A model generated the notes under the pieces. It made no database searches. It had not been told where the DNA came from and was given only the letters and a program-made list of their open reading frames with translations. A stretch of DNA of 44,429 nucleotides from Oligoflexia bacterium (lineage in GTDB: Bacteria > Bdellovibrionota > UBA1018): positions 1 to 44,429 of the forward strand of contig JACMQW010000092.1 of assembly GCA_014376785.1 (NCBI GenBank), written 5' to 3'. Of the stretch, positions 15,428 through 41,468 are shown in pieces. Both the position numbers and the translations under genes were made by a program. Position 1 is the first letter of the stretch, and every line of letters starts with the position of its first letter.

Positions 15428-16921
15428 ATGAAGAAGGCGCTCAAAGTCTTCTGGAAAATTTCGATTAGTTTAAAATTCGCAGTGACTGTGATGATCTGTT
15501 TGACCGGATCTCTGATCATTGCGACCGTTCTTGAGTCGATGTTTGATACGCCGACGGCCCAATACTGGATCTACCAAACCACTCTTTTTTATACGTTGCT
15601 GGCTCTTCTGGGTTGGTTGATTTTAGCGGTCGCGCTTTCTCGGCTTCCTTGGCAGAAAAAACACCTACCGTTTCTTGCTGCGCACTTAGGGATTTTACTG
15701 CTCCTTTACGGATCCTGGCTCACTTTTCAATTCGGCGTCGATGGTTCGATGCAAGTGACTGAAGGTCGCTCTGAAAGTGCCGTTGAATTGAACGAACCGC
15801 TTTTAATGATTTCTGAAGCGAGCTCTGTTCGGACCATTCCCGTTCCGTGGACGCCGCCGAACGCGACCTTCCGACCGATTGAGATTCCCGAATTCGGTTT
15901 GGTGGTCGACACGTTTATTTCGAGGGCGGAATCGAAAGTAGATTTCGTCGCAACAAGCGACGTTCGGGACATTCCGGCGCCGGCGCTTCGAGTGAAAATC
16001 GCCGGAGGCCCGAAGGCTCCCCCGTTTATGCGGATGGGGCAGGAAAGCTGGCTCTGGGGCGGCGATCAAAGTTGGATGCGCCAACAGGTCGGTCCGACGG
16101 TTCTCGGAATCGCACCCGGACTCGATCCTCTTCCCTTTACGGCACCGGGTCCGGCCATGAATTTTCGGGTGAACGTCGCAGAGGGAAAACTCGATGTGGC
16201 CATTCAAACCGTCGACGGCAAAAAATCCTCGCTTTCGTTTCCGTATAAAGATCCTCGTGAACTCGTAGGGAAAGTGATCGCCACCGGTTGGAAGTTCGAA
16301 GCAACGGCGACGATCCTCGACTTCATTCCGAAAGCGATTAGTGATGTCCGTTACGGGCCGGCAAGGATCCAATACGGCAGTGGCGCCCCGAACTCTGCGA
16401 TCCTCCTGAAGTCCCGCCAGGTCACGCCGGGCGCCCCAGAATCAAAAGTTTGGCTAGGCCTTGGCGATCGCGCCACCCTGGAACTCCCGTCCGCGAACGG
16501 CACTCCTAGAAAAGTGACGATTGGTTATTTCCCACGCCGGATCGTGCTTCCTTTTGCGCTGAAGCTCGATGCTTTCAAGATCGATCGGTATCAGGGCACG
16601 ATGAATCCAAGCGAATTTTCTTCCGTCGTTTCGGTGAATGGAAATGAGTCGGGTGGGGAAGAGCAGCCTAAGAACCGCCTGATTTCGATGAACGAACCGA
16701 TGAAGCATGGCGGGTTCACTTTTTATCAAGCGAGTTACGTGGATGCTCAACCGCGTCCGACGACTTCGATTTTTTCGGTAAACCAAGATCCGGGTCGATG
16801 GTTGAAATACCTCGGAAGTCTTCTCTTAGTCGGCGGAACCATCTGGTTGTTCGCCATGAAATACGTCAAGAAAAAGCGAGAGGTCCCGATCGGGAACCCT
16901 CTTGAGAAGGATCATTCATGA
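15428..16921 (+). CDS. resB: Cytochrome c biogenesis protein ResB/CcsB (System II)
   Basis: Membrane component of the System II haem-delivery and ligation complex, which exports haem and attaches it to CXXCH motifs of periplasmic cytochromes c. The 497-residue protein shows the ResB plan: three N-terminal membrane segments (about 14-35, 47-68, 78-97, ending LGILLLLYGSWLTFQFG), a large periplasmic domain (about 100-460), and a final membrane helix (YLGSLLLVGGTIWLFAMKYV). Near the end of the periplasmic domain lies MNEPMKHGGFTFYQASY; GGFTFYQASY-like motifs are a hallmark of ResB. A GGAGGT site lies six bases before the ATG. Its last four bases overlap the ccsA start (ATGA), so the two subunits are translationally coupled. 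Confidence 0.9.
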   Translation: MKKALKVFWKISISLKFAVTVMICLTGSLIIATVLESMFDTPTAQYWIYQTTLFYTLLALLGWLILAVALSRLPWQKKHLPFLAAHLGILLLLYGSWLTFQFGVDGSMQVTEGRSESAVELNEPLLMISEASSVRTIPVPWTPPNATFRPIEIPEFGLVVDTFISRAESKVDFVATSDVRDIPAPALRVKIAGGPKAPPFMRMGQESWLWGGDQSWMRQQVGPTVLGIAPGLDPLPFTAPGPAMNFRVNVAEGKLDVAIQTVDGKKSSLSFPYKDPRELVGKVIATGWKFEATATILDFIPKAISDVRYGPARIQYGSGAPNSAILLKSRQVTPGAPESKVWLGLGDRATLELPSANGTPRKVTIGYFPRRIVLPFALKLDAFKIDRYQGTMNPSEFSSVVSVNGNESGGEEQPKNRLISMNEPMKHGGFTFYQASYVDAQPRPTTSIFSVNQDPGRWLKYLGSLLLVGGTIWLFAMKYVKKKREVPIGNPLEKDHS

Positions 16922-18690
16922 AGTCGAATTCCCCATTTCTAGGATTTATGCGAGCCGCGTTTTTCAGCGTGGCGCTGATCTCGACGAACATCGCTCTTGC
17001 CGCTCCGACCCCGAAAGCGGGGTGGAGTTTCAAGGAGATGGGGGCTCTGCCCATCCAAGCGGGCGGACGGATAAAACCTTTTGATTCCTACGCGCGAGAT
17101 CTGGTCCTCCAAATCACCGGGCGTCGAACGTTTGAGGGATGGGATCCCGTAGAACTGGTTCTGTCTTGGCTTGCGGATCCGAAAGGGTGGGAAGACCAGC
17201 GCTTCATCCTCATCGGAAGAAAAGATGTGAAACGCCAACTTCGCCTAAATGAAGACCAGTCTCGTTTTTCTCCCCAGGAACTTTTCTTAGAATCTTTCAT
17301 GGCAGACTACGCCGCCAGCATGGGGAGCGCGCAAGGCGGACTTTCCGCTCAAGCGACTCCGATCGCCAGAACGTCGAAGCCGGATGCCAGAGACCAGGAG
17401 CTGAAGCATCTGTTTGAGCGCGTGAGCGTCTACCGCGCCATCGTTTCCGGAGAAGCCTGGATGGTGATTCCGACTCCGCCTCCGGCGCCTTGGCTGACGC
17501 TCGGGATGTCTGGACCAGACGCTTCGAAGGTGAATGAATTGCCGGGTAAACCCGTGCGGGACTCTTTCATGCATCTTTTTGCCGCTTATCTGAAGGGCAG
17601 CGAAACGGAATTTCAAACGGGCATTCGGGAGGCGAATTCAGCCATCACCGCCGAGATGAAAGGGGAGTGGAATCCTTCAAGCGAACGGAAAATCTCCGCA
17701 GAGCTTCTCTATAATCGCCTGCACCCCTACCAAATCGCATGGGTGCTTTACCTCATTTGCGCGCTTCTCTGGACTGCTTCCATCTGGCTTTCTGCAAGTG
17801 GGGTGACTGCGATTCATGGGGGTGCTGACCTTTCGCCTGCGACGAAAACGTCGAAACGCTGCGGCCAAGCCGCACTACCGCTCACGTTCATCGCGCTTGG
17901 ATTTCAAGTCTTCGGAATTCTCCTTCGCTGTTACATTGCCGGACGTCCGCCGGTGACGAACATGTACGAGTCGATCGTGTGGGTGAGTTTCGGCACCATG
18001 CTCTTTTCGATCATCCTTTGGTTCATCCAGCGGAACTCAATTCTTTTCGCGATTTCGACCACGCTGAGTGCGATCGTCCTCATCGTTTCAGACGCCGCTC
18101 CCGCGATGATCGATCCTTCGATCCATCCGCTCGTGCCGGTACTTCGGTCGAATTACTGGCTGATGATTCACGTGATGACGATCACGCTTTCTTACGCTGC
18201 GTTCGCGCTCACGCTGGGAATTGGTAACGTCACTCTCTGGTTTTACTTAAATGGCGAAGATCAGAATCAAGCGGGAATGAAAAAAATCGCGATGCTGAAT
18301 CTGCTCACTTACCGTGCGATGCAGTTCGGCGTGGTGCTTCTCGCTGCCGGAACAATCTTGGGCGGAATCTGGGCCGATTATTCCTGGGGTCGTTTCTGGG
18401 GATGGGATCCGAAAGAAGTTTGGGCACTGATTGCGCTCATGGGCTACCTCATCGTGATTCACGCGCGCTTTACCGGATGGATGCGCCCGTTTGGTTTTGC
18501 GGCCTGGAGTGTGATTGCGTTTACTCTCGTCGTGATGGCCTGGTACGGAGTGAACTTCGTGCTCGGAGTAGGTCTCCACTCTTATGGTTTCTCCACGGGA
18601 GGCCAGTCGACGGTCGCCGTGTTCGTGCTCGGGCAGATGGCTTACGTCATCGGAATCGCGATCGCGCGGAAACGCCGAACTCTTAAATAG
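16918..18690 (+). CDS. ccsA: Cytochrome c biogenesis protein CcsA/ResC with extra N-terminal exported domain
   Basis: Haem-handling partner of ResB, 590 residues. The last two thirds hold eight or so membrane segments and the tryptophan-rich haem-binding WWD signature (WADYSWGRFWGWDPKEVWAL, about 485-504), with His residues in flanking helices (for example NYWLMIHVMTI and LIVIHARF) as axial ligand candidates. In front lies an apparent signal peptide (FFSVALISTNIALAA) and a periplasmic region of about 240 residues beginning LPIQAGGRIKPFDSYARDL. This type of extra domain is known in fused or extended CcsA proteins of delta-proteobacteria-like lineages. The start overlaps resB by four bases. A strong terminator follows the stop at once, so this is the last gene of the unit. 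Confidence 0.92.
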   Translation: MKSNSPFLGFMRAAFFSVALISTNIALAAPTPKAGWSFKEMGALPIQAGGRIKPFDSYARDLVLQITGRRTFEGWDPVELVLSWLADPKGWEDQRFILIGRKDVKRQLRLNEDQSRFSPQELFLESFMADYAASMGSAQGGLSAQATPIARTSKPDARDQELKHLFERVSVYRAIVSGEAWMVIPTPPPAPWLTLGMSGPDASKVNELPGKPVRDSFMHLFAAYLKGSETEFQTGIREANSAITAEMKGEWNPSSERKISAELLYNRLHPYQIAWVLYLICALLWTASIWLSASGVTAIHGGADLSPATKTSKRCGQAALPLTFIALGFQVFGILLRCYIAGRPPVTNMYESIVWVSFGTMLFSIILWFIQRNSILFAISTTLSAIVLIVSDAAPAMIDPSIHPLVPVLRSNYWLMIHVMTITLSYAAFALTLGIGNVTLWFYLNGEDQNQAGMKKIAMLNLLTYRAMQFGVVLLAAGTILGGIWADYSWGRFWGWDPKEVWALIALMGYLIVIHARFTGWMRPFGFAAWSVIAFTLVVMAWYGVNFVLGVGLHSYGFSTGGQSTVAVFVLGQMAYVIGIAIARKRRTLK

Positions 18691-29934: not shown

Positions 29935-31377
29935 TTACGGCCAGTCTGCGGGGGCAGAACACGTTCCCATGTTCAACCCTGTGCCATCGTCTAAGTAAGA
30001 CCAGGTCGGGTTTGTTGTTGTATTGCATTGGCTTGAACGTCCGCGTTTATCGCACATTTCGTCGGATGCGGGAGTCCTTAGGGTGAAACCCAAAGGACAT
30101 TTGGATTTAAATCCAAGGACGCAGCCGCCTGATCCGCTCGGATCCGGAACGAAGTGGTTTGCGGTGTCGCAAGTGGTTTGGGTGTGGAGATCAGGTTTAG
30201 CGGCTTTCTGAGGACGGCAGCAGTCACCAAAAACCTGGGTACCTGTCGAATTATAGCACCGAACTTCTGCTTTAGTCGTGCGGGTATTGCCTCTGCCTGT
30301 CTCATTTCCGGAAGCATCGTAAGTTTTTAACCACTTAAATTCCCCTGTGAAATGCTGGCATCCACCGGCGACGTTCGACATGCTTTCGCCAGGCGCCGTA
30401 CAACTCACCCGAGCATAATCGTTATCGGGACTACCGTGGTCCTCTTCATACACCCTTCGGCAACAAGTCGCGGAACCATCCGTCTGCGTCGTGGTTGGGA
30501 AATATCCCGTTCCACAAACCGAAGCTGCTGTGCATGCGCGAGTAGTAGGATCGAGGTGTTCTCCCTCCGGACAGGGGAACGGATTTCCATCGAGCGTGCC
30601 CGCATAGTGAGTATTCGGGTCCGCACAAATGGCGTCGCCCACTTTGTGCGTTCCTACCGGATTAACATAAGTACCGATGGTAACCTGGGGCGGGGTGCAA
30701 GTGACTTGCCGACAATCGCCACCGACTAAAACGGAATTATTATCGCAGCTTCCTTCCGAAGTGGAGCAAGACGTAAGATCGAACGTCGTTGCGTCCATCG
30801 TGATGGCGATGGGAATCTGAAACTCTTTCGCGAAATTATCGCCACCGACGTTCGTTTCGCCACTGCCCGCGACGGAGGTTTCTCCCAGTCGAACTTTCGT
30901 CATCGGAATGTGTAAGTTAGTGTTCTGAGTAATTTTTCCACCGGAAGGTGCAGTGGCCGGGCCCACTCTCTCCAAATGAATTTGCCCAATTTTCAGAACC
31001 CGGCCAGGAAGCTCTCCGTCGCTCGTGGCGATTCGTTCGGTGTTCCCCGGAGTCGTTGAAATTCCATTCAAATGACCGAGCACTTTCCAGTCATAAGCGG
31101 AAGGTGCGGATCCCACCGGCGGTTTCGCAGTGAAATTATTATAAGGTCCGAAACCTCCCATGATCGCCCGGCAATTTTCAGTACTTTGGAGATACCCTGT
31201 CATCATGCTTTTGAAAGCGTTGCGGTCGACGATGGACGACACATTTCGCGCCGCTTTACCTTGATTCGCCATCATGGTGGCCATCCCGAGACCGAGCGCC
31301 GCCATCAAGCCGGCGACGATGATCACCTCGAGAAGGGTAAATCCAGATGTTGATTTTAGGTTGAAAGACGAATTCAT
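29935..31377 (-). CDS. Type IV prepilin-like protein with Cys-rich ectodomain
   Basis: Prepilin N-terminus: leader MNSSFNLKSTSG, cleavage at Gly12-Phe13, then FTLLEVIIVAGLMAALGLGM with Glu17 at mature position +5, as needed for prepilin peptidase processing and filament assembly. At 480 residues it is far larger than a major pilin. The region after residue 210 contains nearly all of its 22 Cys, including CCRR and CCRP pairs and TC, SC and GC repeats separated by Gly/Thr/Asn-rich loops, which suggests a disulfide-knotted module carried on a pilus or pseudopilus tip. GGAG lies eight bases upstream of the ATG. No pilus machinery gene is adjacent. The 3' end faces the transglycosylase gene with only 36 bases between. 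Likely a minor pilin acting as adhesin; the ligand is unknown. Confidence 0.85.
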   Translation of the reverse strand: MNSSFNLKSTSGFTLLEVIIVAGLMAALGLGMATMMANQGKAARNVSSIVDRNAFKSMMTGYLQSTENCRAIMGGFGPYNNFTAKPPVGSAPSAYDWKVLGHLNGISTTPGNTERIATSDGELPGRVLKIGQIHLERVGPATAPSGGKITQNTNLHIPMTKVRLGETSVAGSGETNVGGDNFAKEFQIPIAITMDATTFDLTSCSTSEGSCDNNSVLVGGDCRQVTCTPPQVTIGTYVNPVGTHKVGDAICADPNTHYAGTLDGNPFPCPEGEHLDPTTRACTAASVCGTGYFPTTTQTDGSATCCRRVYEEDHGSPDNDYARVSCTAPGESMSNVAGGCQHFTGEFKWLKTYDASGNETGRGNTRTTKAEVRCYNSTGTQVFGDCCRPQKAAKPDLHTQTTCDTANHFVPDPSGSGGCVLGFKSKCPLGFTLRTPASDEMCDKRGRSSQCNTTTNPTWSYLDDGTGLNMGTCSAPADWP

Positions 31378-32833: not shown

Positions 32834-34186
32834 ATGACTGAAATTAAAAAGCGTCGTTCTCCAAAAACCCGGACCTCTGCAGAAATTGCCGCTGATCCGG
32901 AATTGTCAGAAAAAATTTCATCGATGATCGCCAGTTTGAATGATTTTCCGAATCCGACGCTTGTGATTGGGGACGGTTGGGCGGCCATGGCTTCGGTCGG
33001 GTTCCTGGCGACAAAAGCGACTCCCGAAAATATCCTTTGGATTTTAAATTCAGGCGCTCGCGCCATGCCTCCGCTGCCTTTTTTAGAGAGTGGAGTCGCG
33101 GTGGATACCTGGAAGCAGCTCGCCCATCGACTTGGGGTCACGAGCGATGAGCCGCAGACCGGCCAATACCTTCGTGAGTTTAGAAATCGTTCTTTTTCAC
33201 GCGCTGCTTGGCATAAGTCTCCGACACCGGAAATGCGTTTTGAGACTCGTATGGAATGGCTTTGGGCTCCGGAGACTCGGATTGCGCCGATTTTCGAGGC
33301 GCGCTTTGACCTCTCGCTGGGGGAGTTGGAAGAAAAAATTCGCGAAAAAATCGCGACTCTCCCGAACGTGCGAGTTCTTTCCGATGTCCCGGTGACGGGA
33401 TTTGAACCTGCAGCGGAGGACTCTCATCCGAAAGTCGTGATCGCGAGTGGTGCGAAGATTTCTTTCACGCATGGAATTTGGGCGGACCGATGGATCGGTT
33501 TGGGTGCCATCGAAGGATTGCCGAAAAACACGGGCCTTGCGAGAAATCGTGAACCCGTTGGAATCTTACAAGCGGTGTTCACGCATTCTGCGGCGATGGT
33601 CCAACAGTCGATGAATGAAGCCTTCTTCACTTCGACGCACAAAGATGCGGGCGAAGAGTTTTCACGCTCGGTTTGGGGACACTTTTTCGACGGGGGTAAA
33701 AAAAGCGTTTGGACGCTTTTTCTCACTGAAGAAGAGGGGCTTGATAATCACACGATCGGAAAAAAATACCGTCGACTCAAGCAGGCGTTGGAAAAGATGT
33801 TCACCGGGCCAGAGTGGCTTCCGGAAGGAGCAGAGAATTTTTCTGCAACCGTGACCAGCGAGCACTTCGCATTCCAAGAGGATTTCTTATTTTCGAGTGG
33901 AGATGCGGTCACCGAGCCGCAGTATCTCGGAGAAAAGAAGGGGTCGAAAAAAGAAAAGGCGGCCGCGCAAGAAGCACTGCCTTTGGCTTTCGTAACCGAT
34001 GCCTTCGGCCCGTCTGTGGCGATGGAACAAGTCGCGAAACTCTTCGCGGCCGAGCTCGGAATTCCGGTCGATCTACCGAACATCACGCCCTACACGCCTG
34101 CTCCTATGAATTCAGCCGAAGAGGGTGGGGCGGAAACCCAAGACGAAAACGTGAACGGGAGTTCTGATTCCGGCGAAGAGTCCTAA
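32834..34186 (+). CDS. Protein of unknown function with N-terminal Rossmann-like nucleotide-binding start
   Basis: The 450-residue product begins with a basic stretch (KKRRSPKTR) and then PTLVIGDGWAAMASVGFLA (about 40-58), a GxGxx(A/S) pattern like the dinucleotide-binding start of FAD-dependent oxidoreductases. The later RNREPVGILQAVFTH and LAFVTDAFGPSVAMEQVAKL could be a return to the same fold (a GD-box-like D-A-F-G). No complete cofactor signature is visible, so an oxidoreductase role is only a suggestion. No signal peptide. The C-terminus is acidic and low-complexity (EEGGAETQDENVNGSSDSGE). It follows lysC by 34 bases, probably in one operon. The last 75 bases overlap the comF gene on the opposite strand. 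Confidence 0.7.
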   Translation: MTEIKKRRSPKTRTSAEIAADPELSEKISSMIASLNDFPNPTLVIGDGWAAMASVGFLATKATPENILWILNSGARAMPPLPFLESGVAVDTWKQLAHRLGVTSDEPQTGQYLREFRNRSFSRAAWHKSPTPEMRFETRMEWLWAPETRIAPIFEARFDLSLGELEEKIREKIATLPNVRVLSDVPVTGFEPAAEDSHPKVVIASGAKISFTHGIWADRWIGLGAIEGLPKNTGLARNREPVGILQAVFTHSAAMVQQSMNEAFFTSTHKDAGEEFSRSVWGHFFDGGKKSVWTLFLTEEEGLDNHTIGKKYRRLKQALEKMFTGPEWLPEGAENFSATVTSEHFAFQEDFLFSSGDAVTEPQYLGEKKGSKKEKAAAQEALPLAFVTDAFGPSVAMEQVAKLFAAELGIPVDLPNITPYTPAPMNSAEEGGAETQDENVNGSSDSGEES

Positions 34187-34891
34187 TTCTTCGAAAGATT
34201 TTTTTGTAGCAGAGACGGCAGAGCGTAAAGTGTGCCCGGATGTGAGGAAGTCATCGACGAGAACGACCTCAGCGCAGGCATCTGAAAGTGCGAGCGCTGA
34301 ATTCCAGAGGTGGGGATCGCGCATGCATTCCGTTCGGGTCTTGCCTCTGATCGGTGAAGCTCTCAGGTAACGATCGGATCCTTTTGTTCGTGCTTGGTTC
34401 ACGGCGGGGGCGCCGCGAGAAACCTCCGTCGTAAGGAGTTCGAGCGAAGTCCATTCCCTCGAACCTCCGAGCATCATTTCTACAACCCGTAAGACGGATC
34501 CTCCATCGAGTTCCCATTTCCGGGCATGGTTTTGGGGAACCGGAATCAGCATTACAGGTTTCTCCGGCCCGAATGAAGGCAGCGCTGCGCGAACGCCTTT
34601 TGCCAGTAATTGTTCGAGTTTCGGATTTGCTGACTTTTTCCAGGACTTTAGAACACGGGCACCGGGTCCGATCGAGAGGTAAGCGGCGTGAAGCGATGCG
34701 AAGGTGAAGGACCCTTCCACGCCGTCGACCTTCATCCAAGCGCGACTGCAACTCCTTTCAGGACATGCGAGGCCGAGGCAAGTTTCGCAGATCGGAGGTG
34801 ACCTCAGCAGGCTGCGGAGACAATCCGAACAGGGAAGCGAGGACGTGAACTTTTCCGAGGGGAGCAGGCAGACGGCGCAGGTAGAGAGCAT
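34112..34891 (-). CDS. comF: ComF-family phosphoribosyltransferase-like protein
   Basis: The 259-residue protein has the ComF plan: an N-terminal zinc-finger-like Cys set (CAVCLLP...CSDC...CETC), a middle segment with LIPVPQNHARKWELDGGS, and the PRPP-binding loop VVLVDDFLTSGHTL near residue 210. ComF proteins are required for DNA uptake in competent bacteria and interact with helicase components such as PriA or ComFA; their substrate is unknown. GGAGAG lies a few bases before the ATG. It is divergent from the transporter-ligase fusion, 57 bases apart, and its 3' end overlaps the oxidoreductase-like gene antiparallel for 75 bases. In this lineage, ComF together with the type IV prepilin gene nearby hints at DNA uptake, but the other competence genes are not in this window. 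Confidence 0.88.
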   Translation of the reverse strand: MLSTCAVCLLPSEKFTSSLPCSDCLRSLLRSPPICETCLGLACPERSCSRAWMKVDGVEGSFTFASLHAAYLSIGPGARVLKSWKKSANPKLEQLLAKGVRAALPSFGPEKPVMLIPVPQNHARKWELDGGSVLRVVEMMLGGSREWTSLELLTTEVSRGAPAVNQARTKGSDRYLRASPIRGKTRTECMRDPHLWNSALALSDACAEVVLVDDFLTSGHTLRSAVSATKKSFEELGLFAGIRTPVHVFVLGFRPTLFG

Positions 34892-34948: not shown

Positions 34949-36337
34949 ATGTCCGCGAACATGACTAATGACTCCTTCCGTTCGAGAGGACAGACCGCGG
35001 TGACTGCCGTTTTTATGGCCTCACTGCTGACGGCTACTTTTCTCGGATCGAAGCTCATCTTGGTGGGCGGAATGACGTTTTCCCTAGGCTTGATCATTTT
35101 TCCTTTTACCTTCATCGCATTGGAGACATCGACGGAGGTGTATGGGCGAGGGTTTGCGAATCACCTCATCCGAGTCGGAATCGGCATCCAAATCTACGTT
35201 CTTTGCCTGATTGCTCTAGGAAGTCTTCTTCCCGAATCGCCCCTTCGATCTCTCGACGGTGCTTATGGGAAAATGTTTGGGTTGGCTCCTCGCATGATAC
35301 TCGCTTCGGTTACTGCGTATGCCTTCTCCCAATTTGTCGACGTTTCCGTCTTTTTAAAAGTGGGGAAAGCGACTCACGGTCGCCACCTCTGGCTGCGCGC
35401 AAATGCCGCTAGCTATGTCTCCCAAGCAGTCGATACCGTGATTTTCTCTTTGGTTTTTTTGGGCGGGGTTCTGCCTTTTTCGGTCTTAATCCGATCGGCG
35501 TCCGTCGCTTATTTGGTAAAAATCGGGGTCGGCACCCTGGACACGCCGTTGGTTTATCTCGGAAGGAGGGCCTTGCGCGCACTCGACCGAAAGAGCGGCC
35601 AATCTTCTTTGAGGGTTGAGGCTCTTCGAACCTCTATTTTCAAACAGGGTGAAGACTTAGCCGCCTTCATCGTTTCCGCGGTCCCCAGCCGTTTCGTATC
35701 AGAAGGAATGATTCTCGCGATCACCTCTAAAATCGTATCTCTCGCCGAGGGCGAGGTCATTTCTTCTTCCGGATTGAACAAGCTTGAGCTCATCCGTCGA
35801 GAGGCCGATATCTATCTAGGGGAGACGCTGTTTGGGGTGTCTCTGACGATCAAGCATGGAATCCTGATTCCTTCCGCAGGAATTGACGAATCGAATTCGG
35901 ACGGAGAAAAGTTCATTCTCTTTCCAAAAGATCCCTACCAGTCCGCGAAGCTTCTGCATTCGGCTTTGAAGAAGGCTTGGAAGCTTGATCGTTTGGGAAT
36001 TCTCATTACCGACTCCCACACTCATCCGCTTCGGAGGGGTGTCACGGGCATCGGACTTTCACACTGGGGGTTTAAGGCCACTCGGAATTTAGTTGGAAAA
36101 CGAGATCTTTTTGGTCGCGAAGTGAAGATGACCCACGTGAACGTGATCGACGCACTAGCCGTCTCCGCTGTTTACGCAATGGGCGAGGTCGCAGAGCAGA
36201 GACCACTCGCGATTCTCAATGACGAAGGAATAGAATTCACCGACTCCAGCTCTGCCGAGGAAATATCCATTCCTCGTGAAGAGGATCTCTATGGGAGTCT
36301 GCTCTTCCCTGAAACTAAAACGTCCCGTTCGACTTAA
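34949..36337 (+). CDS. Fusion of YhhQ/QueT-type (VUT) queuosine-precursor transporter and CofE-type gamma-glutamyl ligase
   Basis: Residues about 15-210 form a polytopic membrane domain with VUT-family hallmarks: FPFTFIALETSTEVYG (51-66), SQFVDVSVF (127-135) and WLRANAASYVSQAVDTVIF (148-166), as in YhhQ/QueT importers of queuosine precursors. After a basic linker (RRALRALDRKSG, 206-217) the C-terminal part (about 225-420) matches CofE (COG1478, PF01996). Its motifs are TSKIVSLAEGEVI (259-271), LIPSAGIDESN (306-316), LFPKDPYQSA (324-333), ILITDSHTHPLRRGVTGIGL (351-370) and DALAVSAVYAMGEVAEQRP (401-419). CofE adds glutamates to F420-0; relatives in Chlamydia replace FolC in folate glutamylation. 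The fusion suggests uptake coupled to glutamylation of a pterin- or deazapurine-like compound. The reading frame is continuous with both domains complete, so it is not an assembly artefact of two truncated genes. The function is inferred. Confidence 0.85.
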   Translation: MSANMTNDSFRSRGQTAVTAVFMASLLTATFLGSKLILVGGMTFSLGLIIFPFTFIALETSTEVYGRGFANHLIRVGIGIQIYVLCLIALGSLLPESPLRSLDGAYGKMFGLAPRMILASVTAYAFSQFVDVSVFLKVGKATHGRHLWLRANAASYVSQAVDTVIFSLVFLGGVLPFSVLIRSASVAYLVKIGVGTLDTPLVYLGRRALRALDRKSGQSSLRVEALRTSIFKQGEDLAAFIVSAVPSRFVSEGMILAITSKIVSLAEGEVISSSGLNKLELIRREADIYLGETLFGVSLTIKHGILIPSAGIDESNSDGEKFILFPKDPYQSAKLLHSALKKAWKLDRLGILITDSHTHPLRRGVTGIGLSHWGFKATRNLVGKRDLFGREVKMTHVNVIDALAVSAVYAMGEVAEQRPLAILNDEGIEFTDSSSAEEISIPREEDLYGSLLFPETKTSRST

Positions 36338-36355: not shown

Positions 36356-38191
36356 TTAACGGTTAATGCGTAAAGAATCCGGAGCCGAGCGCGAGGTCGG
36401 AGTGAGCAAGGAGTGTCGCGTGGTGTCCGCGAGTGGGGCTACCTTTGGTAAGGCGGCGGGCATGGTGCTTGGCAGGGTTGCCGGCGTAACATTGAACCCT
36501 GTGTTTGGAGCAACCTTCGGTTCTGTAACTGGAGCAACCTTCGGTTCTGTAACTGGAGCAACCTTCGGTTCCACAAACCTCAAATTATTAAAGTACGTCA
36601 TCGAGTTCTGACCGGCGTTATCCTCATAGTCGCCGTCATGATAGATGACCTTCGCATCTCGGTATTGGATCACGTTCGAGCCTCGTGCCGGAAACGTGTG
36701 AAGCTTCACCAGTGGATGAAATCCCGTCTTTACTAATTTTTTACCGATGATTTCGTATTTCGGAATGTTCTTGAAAGTTCCCGTCTCGAGATCGAAAGAA
36801 TTTCTCTCTTTCGTAGCGGAGTTCTTCAGAAGACCGTTCAAATAGGTGAAATGCGTTCGCCAGTAATTTTTCTGGGCGGTCTCGATTTTATAAGATGCGA
36901 CTCCCTTTTTCGTCACGGAAGTCGGAATGTCGTAATAAGCGACGTCCATCGCTTCCAGAGTTCCGTCTCCTTTCACGTCGGTTACATCTGGCCAGGAGAG
37001 AATCGAAATCGGAACGCCCTTCCCTAGCATTGCTTTTCGTTCGGGAAGAATTTCTCGCAGCTCCATCACGTCGCTTGCGTCCATTCGGAAACATCCATGA
37101 GAAACGTAGCCGCGCCTAAGATACCACGCGTCGATTCCGTTTTTGTTTGTGATCGGGCCGTGAAAGCCGACCCCGTTGACGACTTCCATGAAAGGCAAGC
37201 CACCAAACTCCGCATCCCAGAAGTCACTCCATTTTCTCGACTCCATGAAAGTACCGCCAGAACCAAATTTGAGCACGCCCTCTCCCGGCTGGTCGAATGC
37301 TCCCTTAGTCGACCCAGCAATCGGATAGACGAAAGTCAGGAAGCTCACATAACCGTCTTTTTCGTTGGTGTTCGTGAGGTTTCCGCCCAGATTTTTTATG
37401 AAAAGATCGCGAGAGATTTCTGAATCAGCGATTCGAGCTTCTAAGCTTGTGCTGAGAGTTTGGTAGAGGGCGAGGCCATCTTCGATTTCCAACGTGTCCG
37501 AACCCAAAGCGAGACGGAGCATCGCGGTTAAAACCGTCCGTTTGTAATCGGCCGGAGTGTCGCTCATGTGGTCATAGATCTTGATCCCAGTATCAGCGAA
37601 GCCATCCGACATGTACTGCATCGCTACCTTGAGCCAATTCTTGATGCCCGCGTCCTTCGTTGCGGTCAGGACCACTTCTGGATCTTTTAGTTTAACGAAA
37701 CTGAGGGACGCACTCTGAAATTTATCGTAGATTTTTTTCCACCGGTAGAGGGATTGGAAGCGGTATCCAGCCATCTGGGCTTCGCTGACCCAGGCTTTTA
37801 CGCGGAGGGTGAGTGCCGTTTTGCTCACCACCATCTCCAGAGCTTCCCTTGGAAATTTAGGAACGTTTCCGGTGTAGAGGTAACGCCCGGCGGTGGCTAA
37901 GCCGTTAAAAGATTTTCCAGGTGTGATCACCAACCGCTGAGAGTTTGGATTAACCGCTGCACCGTCGGCGTCGACGTAAGCACCATCGGCTTCGAAAATA
38001 CCGACACTCTCCATCTCTTCAGGAGTCATCGCTGAAACTTTTTTGTTCTCTTTTTTCTCGTACGAATCGACCTGCATGGCGGTCCGGCTGTGAAAGATGG
38101 GGCCTGATTCTGGGGAGCTGATTCGCGAGTTCGCTCCTGCATTCACTGAAAGCCCCATGACCAACATTGCCTTGAAAAAAGTGATTTTCAT
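36356..38191 (-). CDS. Exported L,D-transpeptidase (YkuD), paralog 1, with repetitive C-terminal tail
   Basis: From the ATG at 38191 the product has 611 residues and a signal peptide (MKITFFKAMLVMGLSVNAGA); an upstream ATG at 38209 would only add six residues. The YkuD catalytic block is GFHGPITNKNG (His344) and GYVSHGCFRMD (His365, Cys367). The enzyme should make 3-3 or lipoprotein-to-peptidoglycan links in the periplasm, or exchange D-amino acids. A calcium-loop-like DVKGDGTLEAMD (405-416) follows the domain. The tail carries TEPKVAPV-type repeats. A 40-residue segment after the signal peptide is absent from paralog 2. The gene lies 18 bases from the end of the transporter-ligase gene, convergent. 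It is downstream of, and in the same direction as, a subtilase gene and paralog 2. Confidence 0.9.
   Translation of the reverse strand: MKITFFKAMLVMGLSVNAGANSRISSPESGPIFHSRTAMQVDSYEKKENKKVSAMTPEEMESVGIFEADGAYVDADGAAVNPNSQRLVITPGKSFNGLATAGRYLYTGNVPKFPREALEMVVSKTALTLRVKAWVSEAQMAGYRFQSLYRWKKIYDKFQSASLSFVKLKDPEVVLTATKDAGIKNWLKVAMQYMSDGFADTGIKIYDHMSDTPADYKRTVLTAMLRLALGSDTLEIEDGLALYQTLSTSLEARIADSEISRDLFIKNLGGNLTNTNEKDGYVSFLTFVYPIAGSTKGAFDQPGEGVLKFGSGGTFMESRKWSDFWDAEFGGLPFMEVVNGVGFHGPITNKNGIDAWYLRRGYVSHGCFRMDASDVMELREILPERKAMLGKGVPISILSWPDVTDVKGDGTLEAMDVAYYDIPTSVTKKGVASYKIETAQKNYWRTHFTYLNGLLKNSATKERNSFDLETGTFKNIPKYEIIGKKLVKTGFHPLVKLHTFPARGSNVIQYRDAKVIYHDGDYEDNAGQNSMTYFNNLRFVEPKVAPVTEPKVAPVTEPKVAPNTGFNVTPATLPSTMPAALPKVAPLADTTRHSLLTPTSRSAPDSLRINR
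36507..36571. repeat. 24-bp tandem repeat in the L,D-transpeptidase tail
   Basis: Two full copies (36507-36530, 36531-36554) and a third partial copy (36555-36571) of a 24-bp unit starting GGAGCAACCTTCGG. On the minus strand they encode the eight-residue unit EPKVAPVT. Copies are almost identical, so copy number may vary between strains. Confidence 0.9.
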
Positions 38192-38289
38192 TGCTTGCTC
38201 ATACCTCATTTAGACGCTGCGCGTTATAAAAAGTCGTGATCTTATAACTTTAATGATTTCAATGATTTAACGTGGATCGGTATGGGTTG

Positions 38290-39890: not shown

Positions 39891-41468
39891 CTACTCGACT
39901 GAGGCGGAAGCAGCGGGCGTCACGATGATGGGTTCTTTCCATTCAAGGTTATTGAAGTAACCCATCGGATATTTGCCCCGGGTGTCTTCGTAGGCCCCAT
40001 TGTAGCTCCCCGTTCTTGCGTCACGGTATTGGACTACGCTCGTTGCGCGGGGTGGAATGGTGAGGATTTGGACTTCGGGATAGTAACCATTTTTTACGAG
40101 GCGGCCCTTCGCTAGTTCGTATTTCGGGATGTTGTGAAAGGTTCCCGACGCTAGATCGAAGGAGTTGCGCTCACCATTCGCTGGGTTGATGAATGTTCCA
40201 TCGAGGTAGCTGAAGTGTTCTTTCCAGTATTTTTTTTGCGCGTTGGGAAGGAGAAAAGCATTCACGCTTTTCGCATCCACTGAAGTGGGAATCTCGTAGT
40301 AGCCCACATCGATGGCTTCGAGTTTGCCATCTCCATTCACATCGGTAACATCCGGCCACGACTGGATGGAAAGGGGAACGCCCTTGCCCTTCATTCCTTT
40401 AAGAGTCGGAAGGAGGGCGCGAAGTTCCATGACGTCGCTGGCATCCATGCGAAAGCATCCATGGGAGACGTATCCTCGGCGCAAGTACCACGCGTCTAAC
40501 CCACTTTTATTCGTAATGGGTCCATGAAAGCCCACGCCGCTAACCACTTCCATGAATGGCAGACCGCCGAATTCATCATCCCAGAAATCACTCCATGGCC
40601 GTGATTCCATAAAGGTACCGCCCGCACCGAACCGAATTTGTCCTTCACTCGGGAGGTTGAATGCTCCCTTGGTTGAGCCGGCAATCGGGTAGACGTAGGT
40701 CAGGAATCCCAAGTATCCATCGCGTTCGTGAGACTCGGTGAATTGGCTGCCCAGATTTTTTACGAAAAGTTCTTTAGACTCGGATGCATCGGCTGCGCGA
40801 GCATCCGCGCTGGATACGAGGTCAGAGTAAAGCTTGAGTCCGTCTCCGATTTCAACACTCGAGGAGGACAGCGCAATTCGAAGCATCGCCGTGAGGAGGG
40901 ATTGTTTGTAGTCGGTCGCTGACTCTTCGCCTGAGCTGTAAACTTCGACCCCCGTGAGTGCGAGCGAGTTTGTCATGTACTGAAGCGCGATCGTCAGCCA
41001 GTTTTTAAGTCCCTTATCTTTCGTGCGATCGAATAGAGCCTGGGGGTCCTTCATCTTCACAAAGCTCATCGCGGGCTCTTGGAAAGCGTCGTAAATTTTC
41101 TTCCAGCGATAAAGTTGCTGGAATCGGTACCCGGCCATGAGGGATTCGCTGACCCATCCCTTCGCCCGAAGCGTGAGCGCGGTTTTGCTGACCGTGAGTT
41201 CCAATGCTTCTCGAGAAAACCTCGGCACATTTCCGGTGTAAAGGAATCGACCTGCCGTACCGTAAGCGTTGAAAGATTTTCCGGGGGTCGTGACCAAGAC
41301 GGAGCCCTTTTTTTCCTTCTTTTCATACGACGAGACATGGATCTGGGAGCGTTCATGAAAAACCGGCCCTGAGCTGTCATTTAGGGGCGGAGTGGTCAGC
41401 GTGGTTCCAGACGCGAAAACGGATCCAACAGAAAAAAGGACCAAAAGAGGAGAGGCGAAAAATTTCAT
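39891..41468 (-). CDS. Exported L,D-transpeptidase (YkuD), paralog 2
   Basis: The 525-residue product has a signal peptide (MKFFASPLLVLFSVGSVFAS). A mixed region of 200 or more residues precedes the YkuD catalytic block, FHGPITNKSG (His315) and YVSHGCFRMD (His336, Cys338). A calcium-loop-like DVNGDGKLEAID (376-387) follows, matching the D-x-N-x-D-G-x-L-x-x-x-D pattern. Across most of its length the sequence is colinear with paralog 1, with near-identity around the active site, so the pair arose by duplication. It lacks the extra 40-residue segment and the repeat tail of paralog 1. AGGA precedes the ATG closely. It acts on periplasmic peptidoglycan, either its own or, if the organism is a predator, that of prey. 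It is downstream of pfkA but 85 bases away, with a hairpin between. Confidence 0.9.
   Translation of the reverse strand: MKFFASPLLVLFSVGSVFASGTTLTTPPLNDSSGPVFHERSQIHVSSYEKKEKKGSVLVTTPGKSFNAYGTAGRFLYTGNVPRFSREALELTVSKTALTLRAKGWVSESLMAGYRFQQLYRWKKIYDAFQEPAMSFVKMKDPQALFDRTKDKGLKNWLTIALQYMTNSLALTGVEVYSSGEESATDYKQSLLTAMLRIALSSSSVEIGDGLKLYSDLVSSADARAADASESKELFVKNLGSQFTESHERDGYLGFLTYVYPIAGSTKGAFNLPSEGQIRFGAGGTFMESRPWSDFWDDEFGGLPFMEVVSGVGFHGPITNKSGLDAWYLRRGYVSHGCFRMDASDVMELRALLPTLKGMKGKGVPLSIQSWPDVTDVNGDGKLEAIDVGYYEIPTSVDAKSVNAFLLPNAQKKYWKEHFSYLDGTFINPANGERNSFDLASGTFHNIPKYELAKGRLVKNGYYPEVQILTIPPRATSVVQYRDARTGSYNGAYEDTRGKYPMGYFNNLEWKEPIIVTPAASASVE

Follow-up and report, generated by a model that had tools for sequence, protein, structure and literature searches.

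What could a bacterium gain from a membrane carrier of the queuosine precursor family that runs, within one and the same polypeptide, into an enzyme of the glutamate-adding kind? This is the question raised by a gene at positions 34949..36337 (+) of the window, by which we mean the whole stretch of 44,429 nucleotides that we analyzed; it belongs to a 3.2-Mb draft genome (G000; 97% complete, 103 contigs) whose named relatives in public records are for the most part bins of Bdellovibrionales or Bacteriovoracaceae. We argue that the protein is probably a folate salvage device: a solitary carrier combined with trapping by polyglutamylation. We also lean, with less assurance, toward a fuller proposal, namely that a COG1738/VUT carrier was repurposed from deazapurines to folate and is driven by its own C-terminal polyglutamylation, as one polypeptide, in folate auxotrophs related to Bdellovibrio.

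To begin with, is the fusion real? One unbroken frame runs from an ATG at 34949 to a TAA ending at 36337 and encodes 462 amino acids. A complete transporter domain (Vut_1/COG1738; residues 12-215, 34982..35593, +), predicted to form six helices and a beta-hairpin, leads through a short linker from the last membrane helix (residues 216-221, 35594..35611, +) into a CofE-like domain, likewise complete, which we annotate as a predicted folate gamma-glutamyl ligase of the TIGR04132 type (residues 222-452, 35612..36304, +). A preliminary description of this locus had read a membrane domain and a CofE-like domain in a single protein, and all of the motifs that it quoted are present; a Pfam search agrees, with 134 bits for Vut_1 (PF02592; cut-off 27, E=6e-39) over residues 46-204 and 122 bits for F420_ligase (PF01996; cut-off 25, E=4e-35) over residues 226-423. 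A separate ligase could not start from an ATG at the junction, for none occurs there; the next Met is residue 254, and the junction has a single TTG codon (Leu221). Could a sequencing error have joined two frames, as the preliminary description itself had wondered? G037, a genome of another family in the same order that was assembled in 4 contigs, encodes the fusion at full length too, with 49% identity across residues 12-457 and no gap where the halves join. Because this is an independent genome, assembly error is very unlikely and was rejected as the source, and the transporter–ligase fusion is confirmed as real.

The fused gene is alone in its operon; upstream lies a divergent comF-like gene (34112-34891, -) and downstream a convergent, unrelated gene for a 617-aa protein (36356-38209, -). 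The latter has a paralogue of 525 aa (39891-41468, -) on the other side of a subtilase gene, and the two have in common a YVSHGCFRMDASDV motif resembling that of L,D-transpeptidases, with no Pfam match for either at E 0.001. Elsewhere in the window, a 480-aa cysteine-rich protein with a prepilin-like N terminus (FTLLEVIIV; 29935-31377, -) has no Pfam match, and a 450-aa protein encoded between aspartate kinase and the comF-like gene (32834-34186, +) has no Pfam or NCBIfam match.

To what, then, would the ligase half add glutamate? Its best family is TIGR04132, “putative folate metabolism gamma-glutamate ligase,” at 224 bits, with a curated cut-off of 350; since all 63 phylum genomes with a ligase match fall short of that cut-off, the model is narrower than the phylum’s ligase group. 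In structure searches with Foldseek, the ligase half matches CofE (2phn, E=1.7e-14). Asp313 of SAGIDESN (35885..35887, +) and Asp355 of TDSHTHPLRRG (36011..36013, +) align with Asp109 of Archaeoglobus CofE and Asp150 of CofE, respectively, and we take them to be the counterparts of the Asp pair that serves CofE as metal/GTP ligands.

The distribution of the ligase is more telling about its job. Pfam and NCBIfam searches of the fused protein find no Mur-ligase-type FolC domain (TIGR01499), and the TIGR01499 profile finds no folC over its cut-off in the window genome. In a survey of 369 phylum genomes, the ligase occurs in 63, folC in 163 and both in only 3 (Fisher p=5e-14 for this avoidance, by a statistic that ignores kinship); the three exceptions all belong to family f16, two of them being incomplete and one 8% contaminated. 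Where ligase and folP coexist, which is in 18 genomes, they are at most 97 bp apart in 15, and the ligase adjoins a folK-folP fusion gene at one locus (L012) and overlaps the end of such a gene in G041. This clustering is seen in relatives; at the window itself, the ligase does not cluster with folate genes. An E. coli folC mutant is rescued by CT611, a CofE-like protein of Chlamydia (PMC1971073), and the preliminary description, which had pointed to a CofE relative standing in for FolC in Chlamydia, chose its comparison aptly: the host has no detected folC, and the two enzymes co-occur in 3 of 63 genomes. Judged from sequence and distribution, the ligase is this phylum’s substitute for folC and a predicted folate ligase, not an F420 enzyme.

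Would such a host need folate from outside? To look for pathway genes, E. coli sequences were joined into a single query, which found folP and folK in none of the six genomes that have the transporter and detected the two in G012 and G041, used as controls; in the five of the six that belong to the phylum, a profile search found no folP either. Individual absences are weak in draft genomes, and with about half of the phylum lacking folP, its absence from 5 of 5 transporter genomes is weak by itself (p ~0.03). The window genome keeps DHFR (beside ThyA), FolD and Fmt; with these retained and folP and folK undetected, it apparently uses folate and cannot make it. A BT1-type folate carrier was considered as an alternative importer and rejected, for none was found in the host (nor in 53 of the 58 genomes searched, the other five matches being weak), and neither the window nor the five related loci have any Rfam match, to a THF riboswitch or otherwise. 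The transporter is not the only solution: 45 genomes have the ligase and no folP, and 40 of these, two of the same genus as the window genome included, are without the transporter subfamily, so folate must enter those cells by another route. As a separate observation, in genus g89, which has closed genomes of 3-4 Mb and is probably Bdellovibrio, many members have the CofE-like ligase and neither folP nor folC, a gene content that suggests folate auxotrophy with polyglutamylation.

How might the fused protein work? A monoglutamyl folate (e.g., 5-formyl- or 5-methyl-tetrahydrofolate) would bind the carrier from the outside, and the N-terminal carrier, its substrate changed, would pass it to the cytoplasm down its gradient. 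There, the ligase would activate the gamma-carboxylate with a nucleoside triphosphate and add a gamma-linked glutamate, and the polyglutamyl folate, now a polyanion, would be unable to go back out. That is, uptake would draw its driving force from bond formation and need no ATPase module, and the product would be the very form preferred by folate enzymes. We infer that folate is the cargo, that transport runs inward and that trapping follows, and the GTP dependence would be carried over from CofE. Experiment has shown that the C terminus of E. coli YhhQ faces the cytoplasm (PMC5372724), which would place the fused ligase inside the cell, and since CofE is a dimer with its active site at the interface (PMC10861534), the fused protein should dimerize as well.

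One might imagine a different division of labor, in which the carrier imports a glutamate-free fragment, such as dihydropteroate or a pterin, and the first glutamate is attached by the ligase, acting as a dihydrofolate synthase. The idea is not unreasonable, as FolC carries out both steps and can be replaced by the CofE-like enzyme of Chlamydia (PMC1971073), and DHFR is at hand to complete the route. We nevertheless consider it unlikely, because other auxotrophs import intact folates, such as 5-formyl-THF via FolT (PMC6609329), and because the cell could make no use of a pterin by itself unless it had FolP, which was not found in the hosts.

If intact folate is the cargo, what sort of carrier moves it? 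A profile built from six relatives and run over the 369 phylum genomes defines a transporter subfamily, whose members score 316-351 bits vs. at most 158 bits for ordinary COG1738 proteins; it occurs in five of these genomes (G000, G037, G040, G318 and G319). All six members are full length and keep the conserved family residues. Only one position distinguishes them from the ordinary members sampled, a Met for Ile in the PRM motif, and so no substrate residue can be named. Predicted models (pLDDT 79 for the full-length protein, 89 for the transporter half alone) give the transporter half six membrane-length helices, and compared with S-components of ECF transporters, it scores VIA Z values of 13.4 for RibU, 11.9 for BioY and 10.2 for FolT (5d0y). 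Together, RibU, PanT, BioY and FolT span 13.4-9.1 against about 7 for unrelated rows, values to be read as those of a predicted model of a helical protein. The fold and six-helix layout are thus predictions, in which the transporter half resembles an ECF S-component, and TCDB already groups COG1738 with the ECF S-components.

A clue to the cargo is the company that this carrier keeps. The fusion is known in two genomes (G000 and G037); in G040, G318 and G319, the transporter and ligase genes are separate and overlap by exactly 14 nt, and these two overlapping genes are the natural unfused form. The transporter subfamily is therefore fused to, or overlaps with, the ligase gene in 5 of 5 phylum genomes. 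A scan of 84,980 species recovered the other four transporter loci and one more, L035, in a bin assigned to Planctomycetota, where the transporter is 44% identical and its gene lies 0.2 kb ahead of one, in the same orientation, for a true FolC (254 bits, cut-off 163). The CofE-like ligase does the same job as FolC and is not its homologue, and so the transporter has been paired with folate glutamylation twice, with different enzymes. The base of this evidence is two fusions and six loci, nearly all from metagenome bins; on it, the preliminary description’s proposal that uptake is coupled to glutamate tagging appears to have been a good one, backed as it is by the two fusions, the three 14-nt overlaps and the one folC pairing.

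Two further observations were made at these loci. At L032 (3305-4993) and L033 (3346-5001), an NAD synthase gene ends beside or within the start of the transporter–ligase pair, a possible cofactor-salvage operon. The sequence at L036 (JAGTJX010000002.1) is titled Lysobacteraceae; its genome falls in the window’s order, and the public label looks wrong.

One fact does count against a folate carrier: under NCBI’s model (TIGR00697; 132 bits, well above the cut-off of 51), the transporter half is annotated as carrying queuosine precursors. Might it still import preQ0, preQ1 or queuine, with the ligase merely tethered to the membrane? In other bacteria, COG1738 relatives occur as fusions with TGT (PMC11130926), and G040 has no further COG1738 copy above threshold. 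However, the other four phylum genomes (G000, G037, G318 and G319) carry a separate, ordinary COG1738 gene elsewhere; queuosine genes were recognized at none of the six loci, that is, neither beside the window gene nor at the five related loci; and chance tethering leaves the second pairing, with an unrelated folC, unexplained. The genomes searched contain most of the genes for queuosine synthesis, and since the window genome has three TGT paralogues, QueA, QueC, QueG and FolE, it does not obviously need to import a precursor (QueE was not detected there, but the E. coli sequence used as query may pick it up poorly). Continued queuosine precursor transport is thus quite unlikely in our judgment. 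The preliminary description had left the cargo as pterin- or deazapurine-like. Its pterin side, in the form of folate, is supported by a ligase that replaces folC and by the failure to find folP or folK in any of the six genomes, and its deazapurine side is not supported, given the separate COG1738 gene, the presence of most of the queuosine pathway in the host and a ligase family that clusters with folP.

TGT itself is part of a fusion at another place in the genome: at L107:2012-4045 (-) (G000 contig C25 near 16465-17529), a 677-aa frame combines TGT (PF01702) with a methyltransferase domain of MnmC-like type (PF05430), and TGT also occurs in 670-760-aa frames in G001, G025, G037 and G012.

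It seems more doubtful still that the COG1738 half is a membrane anchor or an exporter that positions the ligase near some other folate importer; some ligase-bearing relatives without the transporter must indeed import folate otherwise, but a mere anchor needs no whole transporter, with full length and conserved family residues in six members out of six. That the carrier imports F420 or a deazaflavin for the ligase to glutamylate is close to refuted, and an F420 role was rejected: the ligase belongs to the CofE superfamily, but it falls under the cut-offs of CofE models (TIGR01916, 124 bits vs. 181), cofD was found in 0 of 58 genomes of the class, G000 included, and the CofE segment that packs on the F420 ring (G153-C155) is not conserved, reading T-H-P in the alignment. 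The searches for folC and F420 genes that the preliminary description had proposed thus fit folate as the substrate.

How did carrier and ligase come together? In the transporter tree, G000 and G037 are sisters (98/95) beside G318/G319, and the six members need two changes, form no supported clade and have long branches; what we call a subfamily therefore rests on scores, linkage and the supported G000+G037 and G318+G319 groups. In the ligase tree, the G000 sequence groups (98/84) with those of the two genomes of its own genus, where the ligase stands alone; the transporter-linked ligases are polyphyletic, requiring at least four changes. Either there was an old overlapping gene pair with repeated transporter loss or the pairing has recurred. 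That three genomes have the identical 14-nt overlap favors the former and suggests that the operon is old.

Several known systems come close to the proposed folate salvage protein. The CofE-like FolC2 (CT611, TIGR04132) is of the same ligase family, likewise occurs without folC or the F420 pathway and has relatives clustered with folate genes, but it is a separate protein from organisms with folP and folK, whereas here the ligase is fused to a carrier, and folP and folK were not detected. The COG1738/QPTR proteins (YhhQ, TIGR00697) share family, length and six predicted helices; the present carriers form a separate score group and are linked to folate glutamylation, not to queuosine genes, and the fusion partner described for COG1738 is TGT (PMC11130926) rather than a CofE-like ligase. 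The FolT-FolC gene pairs of Firmicutes and mycoplasmas likewise set a folate importer of S-component fold beside a folylpolyglutamate synthase (FolT was assigned as the folate S-component partly through folC adjacency; PMC6609329), although with another transporter family, a non-homologous ligase and two proteins where here there is a single polypeptide. The logic of trapping also has parallels, as BtuM, a solitary S-component relative, is thought to allow facilitated diffusion followed by trapping by a neighboring enzyme (PMC6072759), and PnuC with NadR combines facilitated diffusion with metabolic trapping (PMC7221760). BtuM-BtuR and PnuC-NadR thus share with our protein a solitary carrier followed by a chemical modification that retains the vitamin; they differ in the vitamin and in the modification (here, folate glutamylation), and here, carrier and enzyme are one protein. 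The preliminary description knew of no account of such a system, and among the papers covered by our literature search, none was found that joins COG1738 to folate transport or to CofE-like ligases; the fusion and its proposed folate substrate appear undescribed.

What would it mean if this were so? Known bacterial folate importers are of the FolT/ECF and BT1/FBT types, and the fused protein would add a further kind. The cargo of COG1738 would extend beyond queuosine precursors, and the current annotation would be wrong for this transporter subfamily. Here, too, would be a simple case of uptake driven by polyglutamylation, with both activities in one protein, so that catalytic mutants would cleanly part the carrier from the trap. 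For the bacteria themselves, it would explain how they live on outside folate after the loss of folP and folK.
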